From positions 19,825,292-19,889,291 of the forward strand of contig NC_054751.1 in assembly GCF_018143015.1 (NCBI RefSeq): a stretch of DNA of 64,000 nt, given 5' to 3'. Each line of letters starts with the position of its first letter. Within the stretch, counting starts at the first letter, position 1. Source of the stretch: Lytechinus variegatus (Eukaryota > Echinodermata > Echinoidea > Temnopleuroida > Toxopneustidae). Positions 14,201 to 51,600 of this stretch are shown piece after piece. Both the position numbers and the translations under genes were made by a program. Under the pieces are notes generated by a model. It saw nothing but the letters and a program-made list of their open reading frames with translations. It was not told the DNA's origin and ran no database searches.

Positions 14201-17200
14201 AAACACATTTTCTCATTTGGGCACATACTTTTATTCACTTGGATGATCATTTTATTCAATTCTACTCTAGCCCATTTCAGATTGTTACCACATCTGGGTC
14301 CTGTAACACAAAGGTTAGCAATTTATCATACGCTTGATTTTCATGATCGATTGTACATTGTAGTCAATGGAATCAATCGTAGAAAAATGTTCCATGATCA
14401 CTTCAAAGCTTTGTTACGGGCCCCTGGTATTGATTTTTAAGGCAGCGCAAGTGGTAATTTCACATTCTTACATGTTCAAGATATACATGTAATACATGTT
14501 AATCCCCCCCCCTGCCCATTTATCAGACTTTCTACCCTCTGTTTGAAAGACGAGAATTGGAACCACCAGACCAAGACATAACCAATGAACTATGAACTAC
14601 ATGTATCTTATCATATATTCTAGCATCCTAGAACTCAGTGGTATTTAATAATTAAAATACAAGATAAAATCTGACTGAATTAAGATTGATGCCCAGATCA
14701 TCAAGCTCAGTCCCACCTGTATCCTTCAGATGTTGGTAATTCTATTTTAGCTGGATCAAGGTTCGTAAAGATCCTGACTGGTGATCCTTTCTTTTTGGCG
14801 TCCGGTCCTCCTTTAAACAGAGGATGGTTATCGTAATCCACCTGTAAATATGATATCAAACATGGTTAAAAGGATTAAAGATATTGTTTAATGAAAGAGG
14901 TGATGCTTTGAATATACATGCAAAGAAACTTTGTTCGGTGGAATGAATATGACAATATATATTATCTTTACAATAAATTACAAACACAGGTATTAAACAT
15001 TTTGTTGATACAAACACTTGCGTCTTGTACATGTATGTGGGTCTTGCAGCGTCGGAATTACACGGAGGTGACGGGCGATTTTGCCCCCATGACAGCGAAA
15101 ATTGCCCCTAAAAATTCTCAAAACCCAATGCTTTGGGGCGACTATTTATTTTAGAGTCGCCCCAATAAAATACCATCGACAATGTAAAAAACTACTTCAC
15201 ACAATTACGTTCTCCGGCGGCGGAGCAAGCGCATCTTTTATATCGCCCTTGCCAGCTTTAAGTTGAACGGTCGATGCAATATCCGAGCCTTCCGTAACAC
15301 CGGAAGCTTCGCGACTGTAAATAAACGCGCAATGCAATATGGGATGCGGAGTACGCATAGTCTTTAGCACAGGCTTTTTAAGAATTGTTGACGCACTTGC
15401 CGCATGGCTTATGTATATGTACGCGTGCACGATTAGACTGCACAGCTGGTAACGAGACCACATGCATCTTACGGTATGTGTACTAGGCATGCACAGAATT
15501 GTAAGCGATCAGCTGGTGATTGTGACAGCTCTGCTTATCGACATCGTCGAGTCGGAGTGCGAGATGGATAAGCAGCGAAGCCATATCGTACATGTATAAA
15601 TTTAAATATCTGGAAAGCTAAAATCAAGTAACTTTCAATTTACGATAAGCACAGTTTCAAATTGCCAAGTGCGTCTCTTTTTCAATACCATGGTTTTTCC
15701 ATACTTCACCATGTGCAATATCTAATGCACACATTTCCCATTTGGGATATCACAATTCTGTGATATAGTAATTCGAATTGCTCAGGAAATAAATCCCTGT
15801 TCACAGCACATACGATGTGCGAGTCTTTTATCCTCACAGTCGCTGTCTTTGCTTGTCAAAACGGAGCCTTAATAATCCAAAATCACTTCGCTTATAGTTG
15901 TGAATTATAACTTTTTAATTTCTTTCTTGAAGAGGGGTAAATATCAGACAATAAATCATCAAACAAGGCTCAGTCTAAAAAAAAATTTAGGAGGACGCCG
16001 TGCACTTGAGTGTGGTACTTGCATACTGTTAGCTAACCCAGAGGGCTCTCGGCCGCGTAGCGGTCGGGAGCCCAGAATCGTACGTGCATTTGTCTATGGC
16101 TCACGATATAAAAATATCAATTCCTACCCTGGGGTCTTGGTACAAGGTCACTCATGTGAAAACTGGGCGTTGTGGCGTGCGCCTGTAATCCAAGCTGTGG
16201 GGAAGTTACAAATTGATGCAGAGGTTCGAGCCCTGGTCACGTCTTTCGGATGGTGACGTTTAAGGTCGGTCCCAGACGTAAATAATCATATCTGATTGAT
16301 ACACGTCTGACAAAACTCAAATACACACACACAAGGGTGGGGGGGGGGGGGTGGGTGGCACTGCCATTACAACTTGCAAGCTTGCTTGGTAAGGCAAGTA
16401 AAAAGGGTTAGTTCATACAATCAGGCAATGCGAAAAGGATATCAATATTGTCAAAGTCAAGGAAAGAGGGTATACTTTTCAAAAGCCCAGTGAGCATCAT
16501 GCATGGAAAGGGTATATATTTATGTATACTAGATAGGGCTATTATCGTTAAGAAAATTTTGTCGATATTGTGCTAAAATATCTTATCGATATCGATAACT
16601 ATCGACAAAATAATCAGTACGAATTTTTCTAGCCATTATAGCAATGTCACATACTCGCGTTGGTCAAAATTTGTATCTGCCACTGTACCAAAAATGCCTT
16701 AGGGTGGAAGAAGTTTTATTGATAATTTGGGGGCTTTTTGGACATTGTTCTGAGCAGTATTGATATCATCTCTAAGTGGCAAAAAACAAGCGATTATTGA
16801 CAAGACAAGTGATAAAGACGTTATCGACAACGATACTAGATTCAGAAGGAAAAAGGAATTCATGGATGATTCACCTTATAATCAAGCATTTTTAATCCTT
16901 CAATGCTCTCTTTGATCCTGTGTTCCAAGAAATAGGGAAATATCCACATTACGGGTAGAGCTCGTCCAACATCTATTAAACAAAGAGATTAAAACAAACA
17001 CAACAGTTTATCGAGACACTTAAAACCATCCTTACATATAGCTACATTACTGTTTTTCTCTTAGAAATTCCATAATCCTTTTTTCATTGCTAATCATCAC
17101 ATTTCTTTAGAGAAAAAATAATGAGGAATACAGAAATTCATCTGCAGAAGATGCTTAGTGCCTTCACGGCAGGGTCCTATTACAATGAAATAAAGAATGC

Positions 17201-26200: not shown

Positions 26201-27512
26201 GAGTCGCCTTCAGCTTCACACACTTCAGATTTGAGCCAATCGAGGCCCCAAGACTTTATTGGCTTATCAAAACATTTAAGAAATAGATTTAAATGTTGAA
26301 GTGTGTTTTGACACCCTCAACCCACATCCCCTTTACAACCACACACACATGGGCTTATTTATTTTTTTATCTTTAATGAACCATGAAAAATGAACCCCCC
26401 AAAAAAAATCTAAATAAAATCAATGAAAAAAACAAACATAAAGGAGAGAGGGAGAGATGGAGAAAGAGAGAATTCAGATCAAATAATAAATTTAGAAAAA
26501 AAATTAAGTTTTTTTTCATGGTTAGAATCACGAGTGTGGGTGTTTGTGTGTGATTGTGACTATGAGGTGCACTTGGATTGCATATAAATTATTTTAAATA
26601 AATGAAATTGATATCTTACTCAGTCTATTCAAATTCCAACACATAGCCACAGGTTCATGTACTTTAAATTTTTCACTCTCTCCCGAAAAATAAAGGCTAA
26701 ATATACATTTTGCCATAATAAGAAGTCATTTCAAAAAAGTTTTTTTTGATAATCTTAAGGTGAAAATATCACCAAAGTGCCCATTTTGACGTATGAGTTT
26801 CCCTTTTTGGCTTTACCCCCAAACGAAAATTCGTTTGGCCGCCCTTGCCTTCCCATCCTCATAACAATTGAACGGCAAGTGTCCACCCCCCCCTTGCCTC
26901 TGCTTTCCCGGTTTTCATTTTTCGGATTAACGAACCTTATTTCGTTTTCGGATTAACGAACCTTATTTCGTTTTCGGATTAACGAACCTTATTTCGTTTT
27001 CGGATTAACGAACCTTATTTTGTTTTCGGATTAACGAACCTTATTTCGTTTTCGGATTATCGAACCTTCGGAAAAACGAACCTTATTTCGTTTTCGGATT
27101 AACGAACCTTCGGAACAACGAACCCTATTTCGTTTTCGGATTATCGAACCTTCGGAACAACGAACCTTATTTCGTTTTCGGATTATCGAACCTTCGGAAT
27201 AACGAACCGTCGGAATAACGCCACAAATGTTCGGATTAACGAACCCTTTTTCGTTTTCGGATTAACGAACATCGAGGTATACATGTAGGCAATTTACGTG
27301 TTTCGGAATAAAGACCCTTCGGAATTACGAAGTGTAACCCGCGGCGACAAGGCCAAGGCCAGGCCAGCGGCAGGGGCATGGCCGCCGCGCCGAAGGTACG
27401 GGGGGGGGAATTCGAACTTACCGTGGGGGCAGTGAGGTGCATTATTCAACACATCTTCATCTACGCACACATCTACTCCACAATAACTCGGCGATACTAC
27501 GGCACACATCAT
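11288..27512 (-). CDS. ZCCHC4: ZCCHC4, 28S rRNA N6-methyladenosine methyltransferase
   Basis: Eleven exons join into a 1953-base frame (650 residues): 27512-27422, 24574-24367, 23201-23018, 22390-22299, 18725-18653, 17777-17561, 16972-16875, 14841-14717, 13588-13461, 12476-12338, 11885-11288. All introns read GT..AG with matching phase. Domains in order: a GRF-type zinc finger (CPHGPTLLF at 28-36, [16 protein letters not shown] at 49-64); a C2H2-like finger (C115, C118, H130, H133); a Rossmann methyltransferase with the adenine-N6 catalytic motif DPPF at 262-265; a Cys/His-rich zinc cluster at 365-423; and a CCHC knuckle (C430, C433, H438, C443). In humans this enzyme methylates one adenosine of 28S rRNA and acts in the nucleolus. 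The last exon adds a Ser/Pro-rich tail and a strongly basic end, making it longer than the roughly 510-residue human protein. Introns carry many transposons. Identity is very secure; start choice is slightly less so. Confidence 0.93.
13683..13837. mobile_element. MITE with CTGGGG termini in ZCCHC4 intron 8
   Basis: The left end CTGGGGAGTGTTTCATGAAA is an imperfect inverse of the right end (TTTCAAGAAACATCCCCCAG). The inner arms AAGTTGTCGGCAC and GTGCTGACAACTT also pair. The core shares TACCATAGTAACAGT with the MITE at 9669. It lies in intron 8 of ZCCHC4 and has no coding capacity. Confidence 0.7.
13921..14127 (-). mobile_element. CAGAGCTGCCAA MITE, copy 1
   Basis: A 207-bp element with 12-bp perfect terminal inverted repeats (CAGAGCTGCCAA and TTGGCAGCTCTG). 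It is flanked by TATTAT on both sides (13915-13920 and 14128-14133), a 6-bp target duplication. The interior repeats AATACTGATTTT-like words. It is inverted relative to the copies at 44399 and 44895. It lies in ZCCHC4 intron 8. Confidence 0.8.
14293..14427. mobile_element. MITE with CTGGGTCCTGTAAC end
   Basis: The left end CTGGGTCCTGTAACACAAAG is an imperfect inverse of the right end (CTTTGTTACGGGCCCCTGG). The inner arms also pair around TTCATGATCGATTG. It resembles the element at 18452-18599 at both ends. It lies in ZCCHC4 intron 8. Confidence 0.6.
16163..16334 (+). mobile_element. 7SL-like SINE, copy A
   Basis: A 172-bp element in ZCCHC4 intron 7, antisense to the gene. Its first 34 bases match the 5' Alu domain of 7SL (SRP) RNA without gaps at 27 positions, by my hand alignment to the human sequence from memory. 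The shared core includes GTGGCG and GCCTGTAATCC (A-box region). A pol III B-box, GGTTCGAGCCC, follows at about 16223. A unique body contains GGTCGGTCCCAGACG and ACGTCTGACAAAACTCAAAT, and the end is an ACACACACAC tail. Copies occur at 25020-25178 and 47663-47834. A tRNA-derived origin remains possible because the B-box fits both. Confidence 0.7.
18452..18599. mobile_element. MITE with CTGGGCCCGTAACAC end
   Basis: The left end CTGGGCCCGTAACACAAAAT and the right end AGTGTCATGGGGCCCTGG are imperfect inverted repeats. It resembles the element at 14293-14427. It lies in ZCCHC4 intron 5, about 50 bp past the exon 5 donor. No coding capacity. Confidence 0.55.
19047..19429. mobile_element. Long foldback element in ZCCHC4 intron 4
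   Basis: Nearly the whole 383 bp is an inverted repeat. The left arm has AAAGGTGGTTATTAAAACTA and CCATGGTTTATGCAGATTTC; the right arm has the inverse (GAAATCTGCATAAACCATGG, then CACCTTTG). The halves encode similar peptides on opposite strands ([13 protein letters not shown] and [13 protein letters not shown]), which is a by-product of the symmetry and not a gene. ATTA flanks both ends and may be a 4-bp target duplication. Confidence 0.7.
19574..19974. mobile_element. TTAA-bounded MITE, copy 1
   Basis: The ends TTAAAGATAAATTCCAG and CTGGCATTTCTCTTTAA are inverted repeats, and TTAA at each tip is the target site typical of piggyBac and Kolobok elements. Length is 401 bp including both TTAA. 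A second copy of almost the same length lies at 45889-46286 in the sialyltransferase gene. Shared internal words include GTGCCAAAGGATTCTGGAAG and TGTCCCACGTG. No transposase. Confidence 0.75.
20430..22158. mobile_element. 1.7-kb TA-flanked element with internal duplication
   Basis: The left end TAAGCCTGAGTCGAATCGAT and the right end TCGATATGACTCAGGCTTA are inverted repeats bounded by TA, the target site of Tc1/mariner-type elements. Inside each end, CGATGT(T)CGATCGA and TCGAACACCGG repeat. The interior holds two diverged copies of a segment roughly 480 bp apart (from about 20854 and about 21335), sharing ATTCTCGAACATTGTC and GAATTTAG(A/G)GCT. A 147-codon open frame at 20854-21297 has no transposase features. 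It lies in ZCCHC4 intron 4 and is probably non-autonomous. Confidence 0.6.
23280..23850 (-). pseudogene. 3' fragment of a CR1/L2-like non-LTR element
   Basis: On the minus strand a frame from about 23700 reads [19 protein letters not shown] followed by [14 protein letters not shown]. This is the post-reverse-transcriptase C-terminal region shared by CR1, L2 and related clades. It continues, after [18 protein letters not shown] sequence with an intact FR, to a stop near 23400. The reverse transcriptase core is missing, as expected of 5' truncation. It lies in ZCCHC4 intron 2, in the sense direction of the gene. Confidence 0.65.
25020..25178 (-). mobile_element. 7SL-like SINE, copy C
   Basis: Read from 25178 downwards, the element has the same head as the copy at 16163 (CTGGG(C/T)GTTGTGG, GCCTGTAATCC). 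It has the same body and a longer CA/GT tail (about 18 bp). A deletion has removed about 19 bases including the second half of the B-box, so this copy should be unable to transcribe itself. It lies in ZCCHC4 intron 1. Confidence 0.7.
26921..27345. repeat. 26-bp minisatellite in ZCCHC4 intron 1
   Basis: Tandem units of TTCGGATTAACGAACCTTAT plus TTCGTT run from 26921 to about 27265, first regular at 26 bp and then broken into shorter GGAATAACGAACC pieces. A unique flank (ATCGAGGTATACATGTAGGC, then CACGAAACACG-type sequence) follows to 27345. That same flank recurs inverted at 51066-51160, so the array is part of a dispersed element. It ends only about 80 bp from exon 1. Confidence 0.75.
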
Positions 27513-30640: not shown

Positions 30641-33600
30641 ATGGATATTCATGTAGACATAGATAGCATGTCTGTAGAGAATATGCGCCGTTCTGCTCGC
30701 ATAAAGAAACTAACAGAAAAAGCAATCATGCAAAAGAAAGATGATGAGTTGCAGGGCAAATTTTATTCAGAACACCTTGACCTGCTAACAACCCTAAAGG
30801 ACACTGATAGATTGCTCTCTTCAGTCCCCATTAACGAAAATGAACTTTCTCTGCGGAAATCTGATATTTCTGCAAGATTCGATTCTCTGCGAAAAGTTGC
30901 AAGTGAACTTGAAGAAATTCAAGGCGGTGTGAATGAGGACATAGCCAAGCATTTAGATGAGCTTTCCCCAATTATTGTAGACACAATTTCAAAAATTGTG
31001 GTTGCCGTTTCTGAATCACGACGGGAAACATTCATTGAAGCACCCTCTGTTTCAAAGAAGTCTGCTGCGTCTAAGATGTCGAAAATGTCTACAATTTCTT
31101 CAAAAAGGGCAGTTGTAGTAGCTGAAGCGGCAGCATTGCAAGAGAAACTTGCTGCTCACAAGCGCCAGAATGAATGCCAGATGGTGTTAGAACGCCTCGA
31201 GATGGAAGAAGATGCTCGAAGGAAAGAAGCATCACTCAAGATAGAACAGCTACGAAGAAAACTAGAAGAGGAACGCCTAGAAGGTGAACTAAAGGCACAG
31301 GAGGCAATGATAAGAGTGTATGACGAAGTAGAAGATGATGGTGCGTCAACAGATACGATGAGATCGACAAAACAATTGATTAAATCCCCTAATCAAGATG
31401 ACAAAAGGGTTAAGTCGCAAAAACATGACGCCTCCATCGATCCTCCTCTCACAAAGAGCAAGGCCTTAAATCCTGATTCACCTGTCTTCCAGCCATCTCA
31501 TTCTTCAAGCGAGGCCCAACAGAATGAAAGTCTAGCAGAAGTTCTCACTCGAACGATGACACTTAGTCGGTTACCAATTCCTGAGCCTCCAGTATTTATG
31601 GGTGATCCTCTCCAATATCCTGACTGGCTATCAGCTTTCACAACTTTAATTGAATGTCGTGGAATTCCCTCTGGTGAAAGGATACACTACCTCAGAAAGT
31701 ACATTGGAGGATCGGCAAGAGAGGCTGTCAGCGGCTTCTTTTTGCTGAGGTCTGAGAAAGCATATGAACAAGCCAGAGAAATACTTGAGAAGCGTTTCGG
31801 CAACCCCTTCACCATTTCAGAAGCCTTTCGATCCAAACTTGACTCATGGCCGAGGATCGGCAATAGGGATTCCAAAGGCCTTCAGAAACTTTCAGATTTC
31901 TTGCAACAATGTCTTCAAGCATCATCAGAAATCAAAGACTTGGAAATCTTGAATGACATTCGGGAGATGAGCAGAATTTGCATGAAACTTCCGGATTGGA
32001 TTGTACACAGATGGAATCGCACGGTAGCGAAAGTCAAGAAAGACAATGGCAGGTATCCATCATTCAGAGAATTTGTCTCATTTCTATCAGAAGAAACTGA
32101 TATTGCCAATGATCCGTATGTTACATATGACACAGTAAAGGCAGGAAAAGACAAGAATCATAACGATGCTTTCCAGATACAGGAAGAAAGCAAGAATCCT
32201 ACATCTCGTCAACAAAGGACAACCTTCTCTGTAGCCAGCAAGACAAGCACTACCCAGAAGACATGTGTCCTCTGCAAACGGCAGAATCATGGGTTGAATG
32301 AGTGCTGGGACTTCAATCAGAAAACTTTGGAGCAAAGGAGAGATTTAGTGAAGAAAGAAGGTCTTTGCTTCGGATGTCTCTCCAAAGGTCATATGTCAAA
32401 GCAGTGTCAAAAGAGGGCTGAGTGCAAGAAGTGCAACAAGCGCCACCCAACAAGTCTACACAATGAGACACTAAATCAGCTGTCTACGGAAAGAAAACGT
32501 GATCAAAGTGAGGCACAGTCTACTCAGACCAAAGAAGTTACCAAGGAGAAAGAAGCTTCTTGCAACAGAGTCAGGTCAGATGTAGATGTTTCTCTCACAT
32601 CGATGGTGCTGCCTGTTTACCTATCTAGTTTGGATGACCCTCAGAACGAGATACTAGTATATGCCTTACTAGATACGATGTCGGATACAACATTTATCAC
32701 AGATAGTATTGGAAATGACCTTCACGTGTCCTCTGAAACTGCGATGTTAAGTTTGACTACAATGACAGATTCCAAGACAATTCCATGTAGGAAATTCAAG
32801 AATCTTGTCGTTCGAGGTTTTAAGTCAGCAGTAAAGATACCTCTTCCTGCTGCATACTCCAGGGACTCCATCCCTCTTGATGAAGCTCATATCCCCACAG
32901 AAGATACAGCCAACAAGTGGACTCACTTAAACAATATCTCGAACCAGCTCGCACCAAAGCAAGATTGCCCCATAGGTCTGCTCATTGGATACAATTGTGC
33001 CCGTGCTCTTGCACCAAAGAATTGCATTCTTGGAAAGAATGATGAGCCATTTGCAGTAGAGACGGAGTTGGGATGGAGCATCGTCGGTGGTTCTCAGAAC
33101 GACTCCACAGAGAGCTTTGACACGATTGGGCAGACATATCGTACTGTCAATGTGAAGGTAGCAGATCCTAGTCTGACAGACAGTCAGTCTAATGTGAAGT
33201 ACATTTACAAGACACAGTTAAAGGAAGTTACTGCTGGAGACTTCCTTCAGATGATGGAAAGAGACTTTCATGAATTAGACAGAAAGGAAACGATGTCTCA
33301 GGAAGACAAGAAATTTCTAAAGATCATCAAAGATGGAATCCACCAAAGGGATGATGGGTATTATGAAATGCCCTTACCTTTCAAGAAGGGTGAACCTGAT
33401 CTGCCTGACAATCGGAAAGCTGCTATGAGCCGACTTCACGGATTGAAAAATCAGTTCCTGAAGAGACCAAAGTACCATGAACACTACATGACTTTCATGA
33501 ATGAGATTCTTAAGCGAGGTGATGCTGAGAAGATTCCCACAGATGAAGTGTCTACTTCAAGCAGTTGGTATATACCACATCATGGTGTATATCACCCTAA

Positions 33601-36592
33601 AAAGCCGAACAAAGTCAGGGTCGTATTCGACTGTAGTGCTCGATACCAAGGAACCTGTCTGAATGATCATCTTCTACAAGGGCCCGACCTGATCAATCCC
33701 CTTATCGGAGTTCTGTGTAGATTTCGCCAAGCACCTATAGCCTTCACTTGCGACGTAGAAAAGATGTATCACCAGTTCCGTGTGACGAAGGAACATCAAG
33801 ACTATCTCCGTTTCCTGTGGTGGGAGGATGGGGATCTCTCTAAGCCCCCAGTGGATTATCGAATGAAGGTCCATCTCTTTGGAGCCACTTCTTCTCCGGG
33901 ATGTGCAAACTTTGGGCTGAAGCAAATAGCAGAAGACCACAAAGTCCTTGGTGTAGAAGCTGCAGAATTTTTGAAGAGGAATTTCTACGTCGATGATGGC
34001 CTAAAATGTGTATCCTCTGAAGAAGATGCCATTGACCTTATCAAGAAGGCAGTGTCTATGTGTGCCAAAGGTAACCTGCGTCTTCATAAGTTTGTCTGCA
34101 ACAATCAACGAGTGACAAGCAGTATCCCCGAATCGGAACGAACTGCTGTTGCAAAGACTAGTCTGGAACTCGGTCAACAAGGCTCCACATCAATTGAAAG
34201 AGCACTTGGGATACAATGGTGCATCAACTCAGATGAATTCTGTTTCAGACTAACCCTCAAGGATCATCCCCTGACAAGACGCGGAATTCTTGCCACCGTT
34301 GCTTCCATTTACGACCCACTTGGTTTGATTGCACCTGTGGTTCTTGTTGGAAGACAGATTGTCCAGGAAATGTGTAGACAAAAGATGGACTGGGACCATC
34401 CTGTTCCTGAAGATCTCCGTCCACAATGGGAAAAGTGGAGACTTGAGATTCTGAAACTTCCCAAAGTTACGATCCCTCGTTGCTTCGAACCACAAGACTT
34501 TGGGACACCTCAGGAAGTGCAGCTCCACCACTTTTCAGACGCCTCCTTATCAGGATACGGTCAGTGCTCCTATGTGCGTCTAAAGGATGAAAATGGCAAG
34601 GTCCACTGCTCCTTAGCCATGGCAAAGGCAAGAGTGACTCCTCTAAAGCCAACAACAATCCCAAGGTTAGAACTCCAGGCAGCTACCTGCTCCGTGAGAA
34701 TTGCTAGTATCCTAAATGATGAACTTGACTACGATTCTCTCACGCACCACTTCTGGACAGACTCAAAAGTTGTTCTTGGCTACATATACAACGAGACTAG
34801 GCGCTTCCATATGTATGTTGCCAATCGTGTTGAACGCATACTTCAGACTTCATGCCCAGAACAATGGAATTATGTATCCAGTGCTGAGAATCCTGCTGAT
34901 CATGCTTCTCGAGGATTGACGACAGAAGAAATGCTATCATCCAACTGGCTTACAGGACCTACCTTTCTTTGGAAGAGTGAGATTCCTACACAGGATGTCG
35001 ATGTTGAGGTTTCTCCTGACGATGTTGAAGTGAAATCAGCAGCTACTGTTCATGTTACACAGGTAGAGAACTTCACATCTTTCGAAGATAGATTGACTCG
35101 ATTCTCCAGTCTTCATAATGCAGTGTCAGCAGTTGCAGTGATAGTAAAGTGCTGCTACAGAAAGAAGGACCTGAGCATTGATGAAGTAGAAGCAAGACGA
35201 ATAGCGGAAAGGAATATTATCCGTGCAATTCAGAAAGAAGCATTTCGTGAAGAAAGGAAGCAAATCAAGTCAGATCCCTCAGTCGGTTCAAAGTCCAACT
35301 CATTGAAGCAGCTTGACCCTTTCCTTGATAATGACAATCTTCTACGGGTGGGAGGTCGGTTGAAAAAGGCCGAGATGATGTATGGTGCGAAACATCCTAT
35401 CATCCTACCAAAGCGAAGCCATCTATCCAACCTCGTTGCCTTGCACTATCATCAAAGAACTGCACATCAAGGAAGAAATCTGACCATCAATGCCATTCGT
35501 TCCAGTGGATATTGGATCATTGGTTGCAGGAGTATTGTCTCATCTCTAATCAGCAAGTGTGTAATCTGTATCAAATCCCGAGGCAAGCCAAGAGGACAAA
35601 AGATGGCCGATCTACCTCAGGATAGAGTAGAGCCTTCTCCTCCTTTCACCTACTGTGGACTTGACTGTTTTGGTCCCTTTACTATCAAGGAAGGAAGAAA
35701 GGAGATAAAGCGATATGGGCTCATTCTTACCTGTATGGCTATGAGGGCCGTACATATCGAAATGCTAGACGATCTGTCCACCGATGCATTTCTCAATGGA
35801 CTAAGATGTTTCATTGCTATCCGGGGAAATGTTCGCCTCATTCGTTGTGATCAAGGATCTAACTTCATTGGAGCCAAGCATGAATTGAAAAAAGGCCTCC
35901 GTGAATTAGATGGAGATCGCGTTGCCACTCAATTACTGAAACTTGACTGTGAATTCAAGATGAACCCTCCTTCTTCAAGTCACATGGGAGGAATCTGGGA
36001 ACGACAAATCAGGAATGTCAGAAATGTTCTCGATGGAATATTAGAACAGTCAGGAACTCAACTAAATACATCCTCTCTTCGAACGTTCCTGTACGAAGCT
36101 ATGGCTATCATCAATAGCAGGCCATTGACAGTTGAAGATCTGGAATGTGCGGATGGTCCACTCCCCTTGACTCCGAATCATGTCTTGACCATGAAGTCAG
36201 GTATTGTGATGCCCCCACCAGGAAAATTTGAGAGAGAAGACCTCTATCTCTCAAAAAGATGGAGACGTGTGCAATACTTAACAAATCTCTTTTGGATTCG
36301 TTGGAAGAAAGAGTATCTTCACACCCTCCAAACCAGGAAGACCTGGCCAAAACAACAGCGAAACTTCGAGGTAAATGACATAGTCATGCTACAAGACGAT
36401 GGTCTTTGTAGAACACACTGGAGTATAGCCAAGGTTGTTCAGACTTTCGTAAGCGATGATGGCTTTGTTCGTCGAGTTAAACTTCTCAAGGCAACTCCGG
36501 ACTTAGACAAGAATGGAAAACCTCTCCAAAAGAGAACTGTGCTTGAAAGACCTGTCCACAAGCTGATCTCCTTAGTCCCTAACTCCGACTAA
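30641..36592 (+). CDS. BEL/Pao gag-pol polyprotein
   Basis: One open frame of 1983 codons. In order: a charged coiled-coil N-terminus (to about 240); the gag domain typical of this group (about 310-470); two zinc knuckles near 541-600; a retroviral-type aspartic protease near 675 (LLDTMSDTTFI, with Met where many families have Gly); reverse transcriptase with YVDD near 1113; RNase H starting with FSDAS near 1297; an integrase zinc site (HYHQRTAHQGR near 1604 and the Cys pair soon after); the integrase catalytic core with acidic residues near 1673, 1735 and 1785; and a C-terminal domain common in BEL/Pao. All core catalytic motifs look present. No frameshift or early stop was found. It copies the element's RNA into DNA inside particles and inserts it. 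Class is certain; subfamily is not. Confidence 0.95.
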   Translation: MDIHVDIDSMSVENMRRSARIKKLTEKAIMQKKDDELQGKFYSEHLDLLTTLKDTDRLLSSVPINENELSLRKSDISARFDSLRKVASELEEIQGGVNEDIAKHLDELSPIIVDTISKIVVAVSESRRETFIEAPSVSKKSAASKMSKMSTISSKRAVVVAEAAALQEKLAAHKRQNECQMVLERLEMEEDARRKEASLKIEQLRRKLEEERLEGELKAQEAMIRVYDEVEDDGASTDTMRSTKQLIKSPNQDDKRVKSQKHDASIDPPLTKSKALNPDSPVFQPSHSSSEAQQNESLAEVLTRTMTLSRLPIPEPPVFMGDPLQYPDWLSAFTTLIECRGIPSGERIHYLRKYIGGSAREAVSGFFLLRSEKAYEQAREILEKRFGNPFTISEAFRSKLDSWPRIGNRDSKGLQKLSDFLQQCLQASSEIKDLEILNDIREMSRICMKLPDWIVHRWNRTVAKVKKDNGRYPSFREFVSFLSEETDIANDPYVTYDTVKAGKDKNHNDAFQIQEESKNPTSRQQRTTFSVASKTSTTQKTCVLCKRQNHGLNECWDFNQKTLEQRRDLVKKEGLCFGCLSKGHMSKQCQKRAECKKCNKRHPTSLHNETLNQLSTERKRDQSEAQSTQTKEVTKEKEASCNRVRSDVDVSLTSMVLPVYLSSLDDPQNEILVYALLDTMSDTTFITDSIGNDLHVSSETAMLSLTTMTDSKTIPCRKFKNLVVRGFKSAVKIPLPAAYSRDSIPLDEAHIPTEDTANKWTHLNNISNQLAPKQDCPIGLLIGYNCARALAPKNCILGKNDEPFAVETELGWSIVGGSQNDSTESFDTIGQTYRTVNVKVADPSLTDSQSNVKYIYKTQLKEVTAGDFLQMMERDFHELDRKETMSQEDKKFLKIIKDGIHQRDDGYYEMPLPFKKGEPDLPDNRKAAMSRLHGLKNQFLKRPKYHEHYMTFMNEILKRGDAEKIPTDEVSTSSSWYIPHHGVYHPKKPNKVRVVFDCSARYQGTCLNDHLLQGPDLINPLIGVLCRFRQAPIAFTCDVEKMYHQFRVTKEHQDYLRFLWWEDGDLSKPPVDYRMKVHLFGATSSPGCANFGLKQIAEDHKVLGVEAAEFLKRNFYVDDGLKCVSSEEDAIDLIKKAVSMCAKGNLRLHKFVCNNQRVTSSIPESERTAVAKTSLELGQQGSTSIERALGIQWCINSDEFCFRLTLKDHPLTRRGILATVASIYDPLGLIAPVVLVGRQIVQEMCRQKMDWDHPVPEDLRPQWEKWRLEILKLPKVTIPRCFEPQDFGTPQEVQLHHFSDASLSGYGQCSYVRLKDENGKVHCSLAMAKARVTPLKPTTIPRLELQAATCSVRIASILNDELDYDSLTHHFWTDSKVVLGYIYNETRRFHMYVANRVERILQTSCPEQWNYVSSAENPADHASRGLTTEEMLSSNWLTGPTFLWKSEIPTQDVDVEVSPDDVEVKSAATVHVTQVENFTSFEDRLTRFSSLHNAVSAVAVIVKCCYRKKDLSIDEVEARRIAERNIIRAIQKEAFREERKQIKSDPSVGSKSNSLKQLDPFLDNDNLLRVGGRLKKAEMMYGAKHPIILPKRSHLSNLVALHYHQRTAHQGRNLTINAIRSSGYWIIGCRSIVSSLISKCVICIKSRGKPRGQKMADLPQDRVEPSPPFTYCGLDCFGPFTIKEGRKEIKRYGLILTCMAMRAVHIEMLDDLSTDAFLNGLRCFIAIRGNVRLIRCDQGSNFIGAKHELKKGLRELDGDRVATQLLKLDCEFKMNPPSSSHMGGIWERQIRNVRNVLDGILEQSGTQLNTSSLRTFLYEAMAIINSRPLTVEDLECADGPLPLTPNHVLTMKSGIVMPPPGKFEREDLYLSKRWRRVQYLTNLFWIRWKKEYLHTLQTRKTWPKQQRNFEVNDIVMLQDDGLCRTHWSIAKVVQTFVSDDGFVRRVKLLKATPDLDKNGKPLQKRTVLERPVHKLISLVPNSD

Positions 36593-40019: not shown

Positions 40020-40237
40020 AAATAAAATACTCCGAAAATTTGCTTTGCCCAATTGATCGTGGGCCCGGCAGCCACCGTGCAGCGCCAGATCGACGAGGCT
40101 CTATCCCTTTAATTGTTGAACGCCAAAGAGGGTAGCAGCAACTCCCATCTTTTAACGTCTTTTGGTCTGACGCGGCCGGGGTTTGAACCCCCGACCTCCC
40201 GGTTGTGAGACGGACGCTCTACCAACTGAGCCAACAC
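40020..40237 (-). mobile_element. tRNA-derived SINE, minus strand
   Basis: On the minus strand the head reads GGTGTGTTGGCTCAGTTGGT, then AGAGCGTCCGTCTCACAACC, and then GGGGGTTCAAACCCCGG. The D arm, anticodon arm (CAC, Val-like) and T arm are all well preserved. The acceptor arms do not pair, so it is not a tRNA gene. A body of about 140 bp follows down to about 40020. It lies about 540 bp upstream of the sialyltransferase start. Confidence 0.7.
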
Positions 40238-40773
40238 ACCGGAATCCAAGTTCCCACCGGAAATAAGAAGAAAAAACAGAGAAAGACAGAAGGGAGTTTT
40301 GGGAAAGTAATTTTTGAAATTAGTGGAGGGGACATATGGAAGTCTTTCCAATTAATGATCTGCAACCGTCCTCACTGGCTTCAATCTCTATCAACCCAGA
40401 GCCAGAGGATGCTCCTGTCTCAGAGTCCTACGTTGGATAGAGATTGAGAGTGGAGGTCATTCTAGCGTGTGCTTATTATTAAGTTTAGTAAATAATTTTC
40501 AAATCTTATTATTTGTTTTTTTGTGAGATATACTTACAAGTCATGATGTAGGCCTATGACTCTACCTTTTCTTGTTCAAAACTTACTATTGTCATCGTAT
40601 TGACATCAAATCATTTTTCACTAATTAATTTCAGATTGCCAAGACCTTGGAATCCTCCACATGAATTGTATGGGCCCAAAAGACTGGGGATTGAAAGGAG
40701 CAAACCAACCAACCAAGAGAACCCTGAGTCCTGATAATTTTCTGAGTCTTTACAATCTCGCGTGCATGAAACC

Positions 40774-43700
40774 ATGCTCACAAAAAAATGGATCCGGGTT
40801 ATTGTCACAGTCGTACTGTTTGTGGTACTGGTGAGAGTCTACATAAAGAGGAGAACAAGGAAAGAAGAGAAAGGTTTAGAGTTGGAAATAAAGTTCCCAG
40901 CACTTGTGAGAGGAAGAAGGTTTGACAATTGGTTGATATGATTGGGATATGTAATTGATTTTTATTTCAGATGTGTAATAATATTATGTATGATTAAAAG
41001 CAGCTTGTAATGTTACCATCCGAAAAAAGTAATCAGAGCTTGAATCTCTGCAAGGGATGTGAGAAGTGGATCGAGGAGGGGGGGTCCTAAATCTTACCTA
41101 GACAAGCATGATATTATCAACAAATGGAATTTGAAGGGAAAATTTTGACTTAGAAATTGAAGTTCTATTAGACATAAAACAGAATTGATGGCTTCATTGT
41201 CAGTTTAATATATATGGTTATAAATAGACATCAATACATTTGATTTTTTTGATTTATTAAGAATGAATTAATGACTTCATGTATGAGTTAATACATGAAC
41301 AAAAGAATGTTCTCAATTCTACTTTTGATAAGAGAAGAGTTCAGAATGTTTGCAAGTTGTTTTCTTTATTATGCTTCTATTTAAATATAAATAATCATTG
41401 TTTATAATGGACTGAAAGTAATCATTTTAATCTAAATGCATACCAGAATATAATGTTTTTATAAAAAAGGTGTTCCTTTGCTTTTTTTTCTTTACAGTGG
41501 TGCAAAGAAAAGAATTCCACCAGACTACAATTACACCACAGTATTTAATGACAAATATTCCTTCTCTAATGGAAAAAATGCAAATGGGAGCAGCTTGATT
41601 CAGGATTCTTGGAGGTCCAGAAAGTTTGTTAACCCTGTTGACCCAAAGGTCATTGACCCCGAGGCAGAGGCTACCATGTGGATGGAGATTACCAACCATT
41701 CTGCTCCTCAAATTGAAGAGATGAGGGCGCTTGTTCACAAGCGCTGGACGGCAAATAGAGAGGGCCTCTTGAAATTTAGGTGACTTGAGCTGTTGTTTCA
41801 AACTTGTTCATTATTATAACCTCAGTTGTTGAGGGATGAACAAGTAATTCTTTCACTTCATAAAAAGAAAATTCAAAGGCTTTATTTTCTTATAATTTGA
41901 TTCTCTTGTAGAAAAAAAGATGTGTATATAAAGTCAGAGGAAGACTATATATTTGATGTTGGTTTAATTCAGAATTTTGTACAGATATACTCTCTTACAT
42001 GGATGTTATTAATATTTCTTTTAATTCAGAGCAAGGTCCTTATGTGATTATTAAGATGTTAATTTCAAGTTTTCAACCTTTGTTTGTACATTCCACTGTC
42101 AGACCCTGTTACGAAATGATCTAGATTGGTTGTGACCATTGACCTTTACTATCTTCATTGCAGACAACAACTTGAAGAATTCAAGGCCAGTGTTATGAAT
42201 GCTACTCTGACCCAGAATAACACTCGACCGGGACAGAAAATAAGATACTCCCTCAACCGAGATGCCTTTGCTAACATTACATCAGAAATCTTCAGTTTTC
42301 TTCCCAAGGTAAACATGTGTCCTATTTTCTACTCACTAAGTACAGGCAAAATACTTGCTGATGGCCATTTTAATACTCATGCAGAATATCAACTCCTATT
42401 ACTATTTCCCGACAGTGCTTCTTTTCATACTCACTTTGCGATGCAAAACAGTTTTGGGAAAAATATCAGATTCAAATGTGTTGGTGATATCAGTGCTTGG
42501 GGGCCGACCTTAGACTTTAGAAAGTGCGCAGTGATCTCTTTCTGTGATTGCTTGTGGCAAGGGCGATGCTCTTTCTGTTTGGTTGGGACTTACTTCTTCC
42601 ATTGAAGCTGAAACCATTTTTATTCACATTTTGACAATTTTTTAATTTCCTCCCTAGTCATGCATTGAATGATTAGGGTAGTATCTGATTATTTGTGTCA
42701 ACTTTATTTATAAACATGTTTTGTTTTTGTCATGAGTGGGCTGAAATTGGGCATTATTTTTTGTGGCACTTTTGCGAATGTGATTAATTTCTTTGCTTTA
42801 ATACCATGCAATATTTTTCTCAATGTACAGGAGGGAATGTGTCTCAGATATACATGTATACATATTGATTATGAAATAATGGCTTGATTTTTTTTACCTA
42901 TACTGTCAAAATAGGAGCCTCAACAAAATATTTCCTTTATCAGGGTATGCATCTTGAACAATAAATCACACTAAGTATTGTATGGCAGACTTAATTGTTA
43001 ATAAATTAGTCACTAATTTGTGTGGAGTATTTATGAGAAAACACATCCTGGGACGTGAATGAATAAATCTGCTTAAAAACTGAAATTATCACCAACAGTA
43101 ATCATTAACATTGACACCAAACCAAGCTAGTTCAACCAACTAGAAAAAACGATAAACATGCCAATGAAAGCTAGGAAAATCCATTTAAAGACGAGAGCCA
43201 TGACACCCCAGAATCTATCTTCCAAGTGTGTGTGGCATGGTAGGAGATTAATGTTCATGTCTGTTTTCATCTTGGTCTGATTCGCAGGAATCTCTGTTTT
43301 CAAAGGTCAAGTTTCCAAAGTGTTCTGTGGTTGGTGCTAGTGGGATATTGGTAAACAGTAAATGCAGTGAACAGATAGATAATGCAGACTTTGTCTTCAG
43401 GTAATGTTCAGAACTTGTCTTTTCAGTTCAAGGTCTCCTTTCCACAATACTGTTGTTATCAATATCGAAAGCTAGAATACACGTGTGTAATATGCTATAT
43501 TTGCTCTCCAATCAAGTGATGCTATGTCATAGTTTAATGATAGTATCATAGAGCTTGCTATTGATATGTTGTAATGAAACAGGGCTCTTGTTAGTAAATA
43601 TAATTTTCCTAAATGTATGTCAGTTGAATCAATATTTTATCGCATTAATGCTTTTTAAGCATAAACAAAATAAAGTGCCATATAATCTTGTCTCTATGAT

Positions 43701-51061: not shown

Positions 51062-51600
51062 AGAAGGGAGGCTTACACTTCGTAATTCCGAAGGTTCTTT
51101 ATTCCGAACGCTCGTAATTCCGAAACACGTAAATTGCCTATACCTCGATGTTTGTCAATTCAAAAACGTAAAAGGGTTCGTTAATCCGAACATTCGCGGC
51201 GTTATTCCGAAGGTTCGATAATCCGAAAACTAAATAAGGTTTGATGTTCCGAAGGTTTGTTAATCTGAAAACAAATAAAGTTCATCTCTCCGAAGGCTCG
51301 TTAATCCGAAAACAAAATAAAGTTCACTGTTCTGAAGGTTCGTTAGTCTGAAAATGAAATAAGGTTCGTTAATCATTTTGTTTTCGGACTAATGAACCTT
51401 CGGAATTACGAACCTCATTTCGTTTTCGGATTAACGAACCTTCAGAACTACGAACCTCACTTCGTTTTCGGACTAACACACCTTATTTCGTTTTCACACT
51501 AACGAAACTTCGGAATTACGAACCTTCGGAAATACAAACCATGGGAATAACGAACCTTCGAAATAATGAAGCTTCAGAACTAGGAATGTATGCGGGAATA
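51062..51600. mobile_element. Foldback relative of the intronic minisatellite
   Basis: The left flank (ACTTCGTAATTCCGAAGG, then ACACGTAAATTGCCTATACC) is the inverse of the flank at 27270-27345. Units of GTTCGTTAATCCGAAAAC run to about 51372, then the orientation flips and GTTTTCGGACTAATGAACC units run on to about 51590. The element is thus a large imperfect hairpin built of the same 20-26 bp unit seen in ZCCHC4 intron 1. Confidence 0.65.

Follow-up and report, generated by a model that had tools for sequence, protein, structure and literature searches.

A probable recently mobile SINE family headed by the 5′ end of the host 7SL RNA in the sea urchin Lytechinus variegatus

SINEs with a 7SL RNA head are described in a 2024 paper as confined to primates, rodents and hagfish, and the complete fold of the Alu domain is argued to be important for the spread of such elements in PMC7245038 and the 2024 paper. 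According to PMC7245038, the Alu, B1 and Tu families share the nucleotides 1–63, 76–83 and 267–299 of 7SL and thus retain its B box as well as the 3′ portion of the Alu domain. The same source states 2,363 full-length insertions for SINE1-1_EBu of the hagfish Eptatretus burgeri, which keeps 96 nt of the 7SL 5′ end including the B box, together with the 7SL 3′ region, and so the full Alu domain. In PMC8137916, the UGU motif is given as the SRP9/14 site and the 5′ domain of Alu RNA is described with helices H3 and H4. Here, an element of ~172–180 bp from Lytechinus variegatus was analysed, starting from a stretch of 64,000 nucleotides (hereafter the window). It is very probably a recently mobile 7SL-headed SINE family of the SINE1 type, in which nt 1 to ~45 of the species' own 7SL RNA are fused to the 3′ part of a tRNA-derived SINE. 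The structure of the element, its dispersed copies, the flanking repeats around some of them and the existence of both 5′-truncated and substitution-free copies are direct observations.

The window contains three copies of the SINE, all at the sites where a first-pass annotation had placed them, and the host that it had taken for a probable echinoderm is an echinoid. Copy 1, from which the family was noticed, spans 16162–16333 on the plus strand; it is near the working consensus (0.6% substitutions) and lacks a stretch of ~7 bp that precedes the B box in many other copies. Its location had been given correctly and its first base had not, as the 5′ end ACTGGGCG begins one base earlier, at 16162. 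Copy 2 (25179–25026, minus strand, with the CA tail continuing to ~25020) has 5.3% substitutions and is without the B-box stretch, and copy 3 (47835–47663, minus strand) has 2.9% substitutions and a 7-bp flanking repeat, AGTATAT. A decayed fourth copy at 41052–40950 (minus strand) retains body and tail with 65.8% identity over 111 aligned columns, and its head is unmatched. In copy 1, the 7SL (SRP RNA) head, nt 1–45, occupies 16162–16206 and carries the A-box-like GGCGTTGTGG and the UGU motif. On the same strand follow a tRNA T-arm-like stretch (16221–16243) with the B-box-like GGTTCGAGCCC at 16223–16233, the body TTTCGGATGGTGACGTTTAAGGTCGGTCC (16244–16272) between this stretch and the hairpin, a predicted 3′ hairpin with stems of 7 and 6 bp (16273–16309), and the 3′ end ACAAAACTCAAAT with a CA-repeat tail (16310–16333), which closes the copy. 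The aligned copies end in a CA repeat, as had been annotated, in place of poly(A).

Other features were seen in the window. Four exon pieces together make up a P450 whose top match, at 93%, comes from Lytechinus pictus, and an L. variegatus P450, a 66% relative, was among the matches listed. Two groups of tandem arrays with related units such as TTCGGAATAACGAACC lie 24 kb apart, at 26919–27220 and 51080–51579, and the latter has units of both senses. An uninterrupted frame of 1,983 aa at 30641–36592 (plus strand) resembles, by eye, a BEL/Pao-type retrotransposon polyprotein.

The distribution of the SINE was examined in the genome, which has 869.6 Mb in 33 contigs. When up to three mismatches were allowed, the 27-base head pattern matched 2,486 places (1,257 + 1,229) and a 36-base tail pattern matched 2,265 places, and the reversed control of each matched none. 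The exact head pattern had no match in a viral sequence collection or in one from bacteria and archaea, zeros that tell little given the content of these collections. On the part of contig C1 that was compared, 72 of the 100 exact heads listed lacked an exact tail at a distance of up to 260 bases, and 34 of 62 exact tails had no exact head nearby. Of these 34 tails, 20 were read: 17 belong to copies of the SINE whose head is mutated or a little shorter, and three (L067, L073 and L082) matched it in the 3′ part alone; two pairs of the 20, L070/L071 and L076/L078, shared flanks.

Full-length copies were then counted in a sample drawn from the lists of best hits, exact heads and exact tails, and hence biased to good matches, from which copies not complete at both ends, and those whose flanks were short, had been removed. 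A first count of 46 distinct copies gave 28 independent ones, 15 in a larger repeat and 3 in tandem. A second count, with more loci and other filters, gave 58, 14 and 3, respectively, among 75 copies, the 58 being an upper bound because certain members of the independent class have flanks in common (L008/L101; L076/L078). In this biased sample, the substitutions of the 58 copies from the working consensus ranged from 0 to 7.8% with a median of 0.6%, and 18 of the 58 had none. Of the 58 copies, 8 had flanking repeats of 7 bp or longer against 0.9% with mismatched flanks, and 6 had repeats of at least 9 bp (9–12 bp) against 0.05%; an earlier count had given 6 of 28 against 1.3% by chance. The family thus shows dispersed copies with target site duplications, as the SINE1 class does. 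The other 50 of the 58 sampled copies showed no flanking repeat that reached 7 bp, and short duplications at CA-rich targets are indistinguishable from the CA tail.

Many heads share their flanks inside a larger repeat, so that part of the copy number does not come from retroposition. This repeat has flanks like agcaaagactacaccatatttaaag ... cgtttgccccctggaaagattaaacc and carries the SINE at times two or three in tandem (loci L019, L029–L033, L035–L038, L040, L041, L046–L048 and L055); in several copies a different hairpin tail, with an AAC repeat, is also present. The larger repeat seems to amplify the SINE secondarily. An extended form of this reading, in which the element spread mainly as a passenger of the larger repeat or by tandem duplication and the SINE lineage is now inactive, would account for the 14 of 75 sampled copies with the same longer flanks, the 3 tandem ones and the common flanks among copies classed as independent. 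We consider it unlikely, as 58 of the 75 copies have other flanks, 6 of them with the 9–12-bp repeats, and 5′-truncated copies exist. In a separate locus (L113, ~1491–1776), a tRNA-derived SINE of another family is seemingly inserted into a copy of the 7SL-headed SINE.

The head of the SINE derives from the start of the host's own 7SL RNA, which is the kind of head that the SINE1 class has. A search of the genome with the SRP RNA model (Rfam RF00017) gave 16 matches, 6 of them over the cut-off, and four of these 6 SRP RNA loci (L009–L012) scored 275–280 bits. Nine of the 10 weaker matches (L016–L024) were copies of the SINE and the tenth (L015) was a 7SL fragment. The bases 1–30 of the SINE were identical to L011 and L012, which start with ACTGGGCG as the SINE does, whereas L009 and L010 start with ACCGGGCG and differ at base 3. 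After one inserted A, the local alignment reached nt 45 of L011 or nt 36 of L012, with scores of 68 and 65, respectively, against a maximum of 30 in 2,000 shuffles (versus L011). The 7SL-like head that had been proposed from the window was therefore borne out with the 7SL of the species itself. Copy 1 matched RF00017 at positions 1–44 with 31.2 bits (E = 1.2e-6), which is below the gathering score of 70, as expected for a 45-nt fragment. Past base 45, the similarity to 7SL scored 15–16 against a null mean of 15.7, and four variants of the SINE gave p values of 0.70, 0.085, 0.89 and 0.30, the lowest for L023. The 7SL similarity is limited to the first 45 bases, and the SINE lacks the 3′ portion of the Alu domain. 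Sub-threshold matches to the Rfam family mir-1268 were also noticed in the head of copy 1 (window 16160–16210), in L021, L023 and L024 and at the 7SL 5′ ends of L011 and L012; this family presumably resembles Alu, and its matches to 7SL-type heads would come from that.

The stretch after the head holds GGTTCGAGCCC, in the place of which some other copies have GGTTCGAACCC; both are B-box-like words, judging by the B-box consensus. The SINE thus has both A-box-like and B-box-like words, copy 2 of the window being without the latter. The window also contains a tRNA-Val(CAC)-like sequence at 40168–40240 (minus strand), which Rfam and ARAGORN call a tRNA and which runs on into an apparent tRNA-derived SINE. 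This sequence with the next 60 bases (40240–40168 and on to 40108, minus strand) served as the tRNA-like reference. In 2,000 shuffles per variant against this one tRNA-like sequence, the B-box stretch matched it with p values of 0.044 (working consensus), 0.006 (L023), 0.0015 (L024) and 0.0005 (L021), and the match was short, with 28–30 columns and at most one gap in the three alignments printed. The B-box stretch thus weakly resembles the T-arm end of the tRNA-Val-like SINE. A T-arm-like B-box stretch behind a 7SL head suggests that the SINE is a chimera of a 7SL 5′ end and the 3′ part of a tRNA-derived SINE, and the middle part would, by this weak match, originate from such an element. The body had been annotated as unrelated; this holds with respect to 7SL, to which no significant similarity was found past base 45, but not with respect to tRNA-type SINEs, which the B-box stretch resembles.

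The tRNA-like character of the B-box stretch is also what an ordinary tRNA-derived SINE (SINE2) would show, its 7SL likeness being due only to a common pol III box. This explanation is very improbable, since the 7SL match of the head extends across 45 nt, well past what a box would give, and the head scores at random against a tRNA-like head (score 13, p = 0.65; one tRNA-like sequence compared). Furthermore, no tRNA model matched copy 1 at E ≤ 10 among 4,227 Rfam families, of which three matched, and an exact pattern that joins GGTAGAGC, a tRNA D-arm word, to the SINE body had no match in the genome, a strict search that allowed no mismatches. The element thus showed no head of the SINE2 type, which derives from a tRNA and has a D arm and an A box. 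The comparison with the species' own SRP RNA and with tRNA, by which the first-pass annotation had proposed to judge the head, came out for SRP RNA, and with a similarity in excess of a shared pol III box.

Least probable of all is a set of processed 7SL copies (retropseudogenes) instead of a SINE family, because, for all the incomplete or interrupted 7SL copies that the genome does hold (L013, L014 and L015), the aligned copies have one common junction at about base 45, after which they all carry the same non-7SL body, hairpin and CA tail; poly(A) and full-length 7SL are lacking in them. This uniform chimeric structure is distinct from 7SL retrocopies and of the kind expected of a SINE1 family. 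One of the incomplete or interrupted 7SL copies (L013 and L015, G000:C10:3098183-3099030) is in two parts in the same orientation, with a SINE copy just upstream. By eye, the insert that splits it has inverted ends (CCCGGGGGGGCCACTTAC...) and GGGAGTCCTGT on both sides, and the split looks as if a DNA element had jumped there.

The 3′ end of the 7SL-headed SINE was compared with a second type of tail, which has the same hairpin layout followed by an AAC repeat and sits in the larger repeat that carries many of the SINE copies. In four tails (three of the SINE and one of the second type), 51 of 52 pair cells were standard. Two-sided changes occurred at three hairpin pairs, all in the single sequence of the second type, and 7 of 500 shuffles equalled this. 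A model of the tail hairpin (R1) gave 58 matches at E ≤ 1 in the window and 43 loci. Among them were tails of the SINE, hairpins of a related kind followed by an AAC tail, and a few matches close to chance level, and no LINE frame was recognisable by eye beside the seven of these that were inspected. Two patterns for the shared body or tail, meant to pass over the SINE by its upstream sequence, matched 59 and 237 places, respectively. No partner LINE was found in the 10 loci read for each pattern, all 20 being the SINE itself with indels, 5′-truncated, diverged or interrupted by another insert. Many of the remaining places resemble, by their matched letters, one-base shifts of the SINE, and a few upstream words occur twice among them. 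A hairpin TTGGCGCAAATATTCACTACTGAATGACACGCRCC followed by AACAACA, ~57 nt in all, was also seen at L055:2724-2779 (plus) and L046:230-285 (minus); its surroundings differ, are minisatellite-like and contain no LINE or SINE recognised upstream at either locus.

The covariance alignment of copy 1 pairs nt 1–3 with 42–44, forms two further stems and keeps the UGU. From the Rfam structure line, we take this closing helix to be about where the 5′ domain ends. The first hairpin of the SINE head contains a non-standard pair, which is also present in the urchin 7SL. The UGU at bases 23–25 had one change in 58 copies, and the divergence was 1.6% in the head, 2.0% in the body and 1.1% in the hairpin, the head being barely below the body. 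The minimum-energy folds of the heads alone paired UGUAA downstream in all four SINE heads, and one of the two urchin 7SL heads folded left it open. Going by these predicted folds, such pairing might mask the SRP9/14 site in the SINE heads. The 7SL part may add SRP9/14 binding to the element; the near-constant UGU speaks for this, and the small difference in divergence between head and body and the UGUAA pairing speak against it.

A route by which the 7SL-headed SINE could have arisen and spread can be proposed from its parts. The 5′ end of urchin 7SL (nt 1 to ~45) would have been joined with the 3′ portion of a tRNA-derived SINE that already existed, giving a hybrid internal promoter of a 7SL A box and a tRNA-like B box from which pol III would start at base 1. 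The end of the transcript, with its hairpin and CA repeat, would be recognised by the reverse transcriptase of a partner LINE that would share the hairpin and a CAAAACTCAAATACACA end with the SINE, and insertion would be primed by the target at nicked DNA, often without a long duplication. The 7SL part, folded as an SRP9/14-binding 5′ domain, could bring the RNA to ribosomes that make the LINE enzyme.

Among the literature matches listed, no title or abstract opening names an invertebrate 7SL SINE, and an entry in Repbase or Dfam is possible. Sea urchins have SURF1, SINE2-3_SP and SINE2-8_SP, which, as described in PMC3747384, are alike in general plan, with a T-arm/B-box end and a LINE-type 3′ end, but have tRNA heads in place of the 7SL 5′ end and are set apart from the present family by this description. 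Alu, B1 and Tu of Euarchontoglires likewise have a 7SL 5′ head with an A box, and Tu and GarnAlu are also chimeras with tRNA-derived SINEs (PMC7245038). The urchin SINE differs from Alu, B1 and Tu in its phylum and in having neither the 7SL B box nor the 3′ part of the Alu domain, and it has a CA tail where Alu and B1 are mobilised by L1 through a poly(A) tail (PMC7245038). Membership in the Alu/B1 lineage was considered and is not supported, given the CA tail and a head whose first 30 bases are identical to urchin 7SL.

The closest likeness is to the hagfish SINE1-1_EBu, which is a chimera of the 7SL 5′ end and an older tRNA-derived SINE (Kojima 2020, PMC7245038) and a young family with a microsatellite tail other than poly(A) (PMC7245038). 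With its 7SL head, the urchin family seems made to function as a SINE1 does, yet it has not retained both the 5′ and the 3′ portion of the Alu domain, as SINE1 elements have. An RTE partner has been identified for SINE1-1_EBu (PMC7245038) and none was found for the urchin SINE, which has ~45 nt of 7SL, a B box from the tRNA-like part and a hairpin with a CA tail. A head copied from the urchin's own 7SL suggests that 7SL-headed SINEs arose independently outside vertebrates. We put forward, tentatively and as somewhat less probable than its opposite, that this is the third independent and first non-vertebrate origin of such elements, and that the isolated 45-nt 5′ domain, with its A box and its docking on SRP9/14 and the ribosome, suffices when set on a tRNA-type B box. 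If so, a complete Alu domain, to which importance has been ascribed in Alu and hagfish SINE1, is not needed. An echinoderm family that retains no more than 45 bases of the 7SL 5′ end offers an independent natural experiment as to what portion of 7SL makes a good SINE, and it carries the recurrent birth of 7SL-headed SINEs beyond vertebrates.
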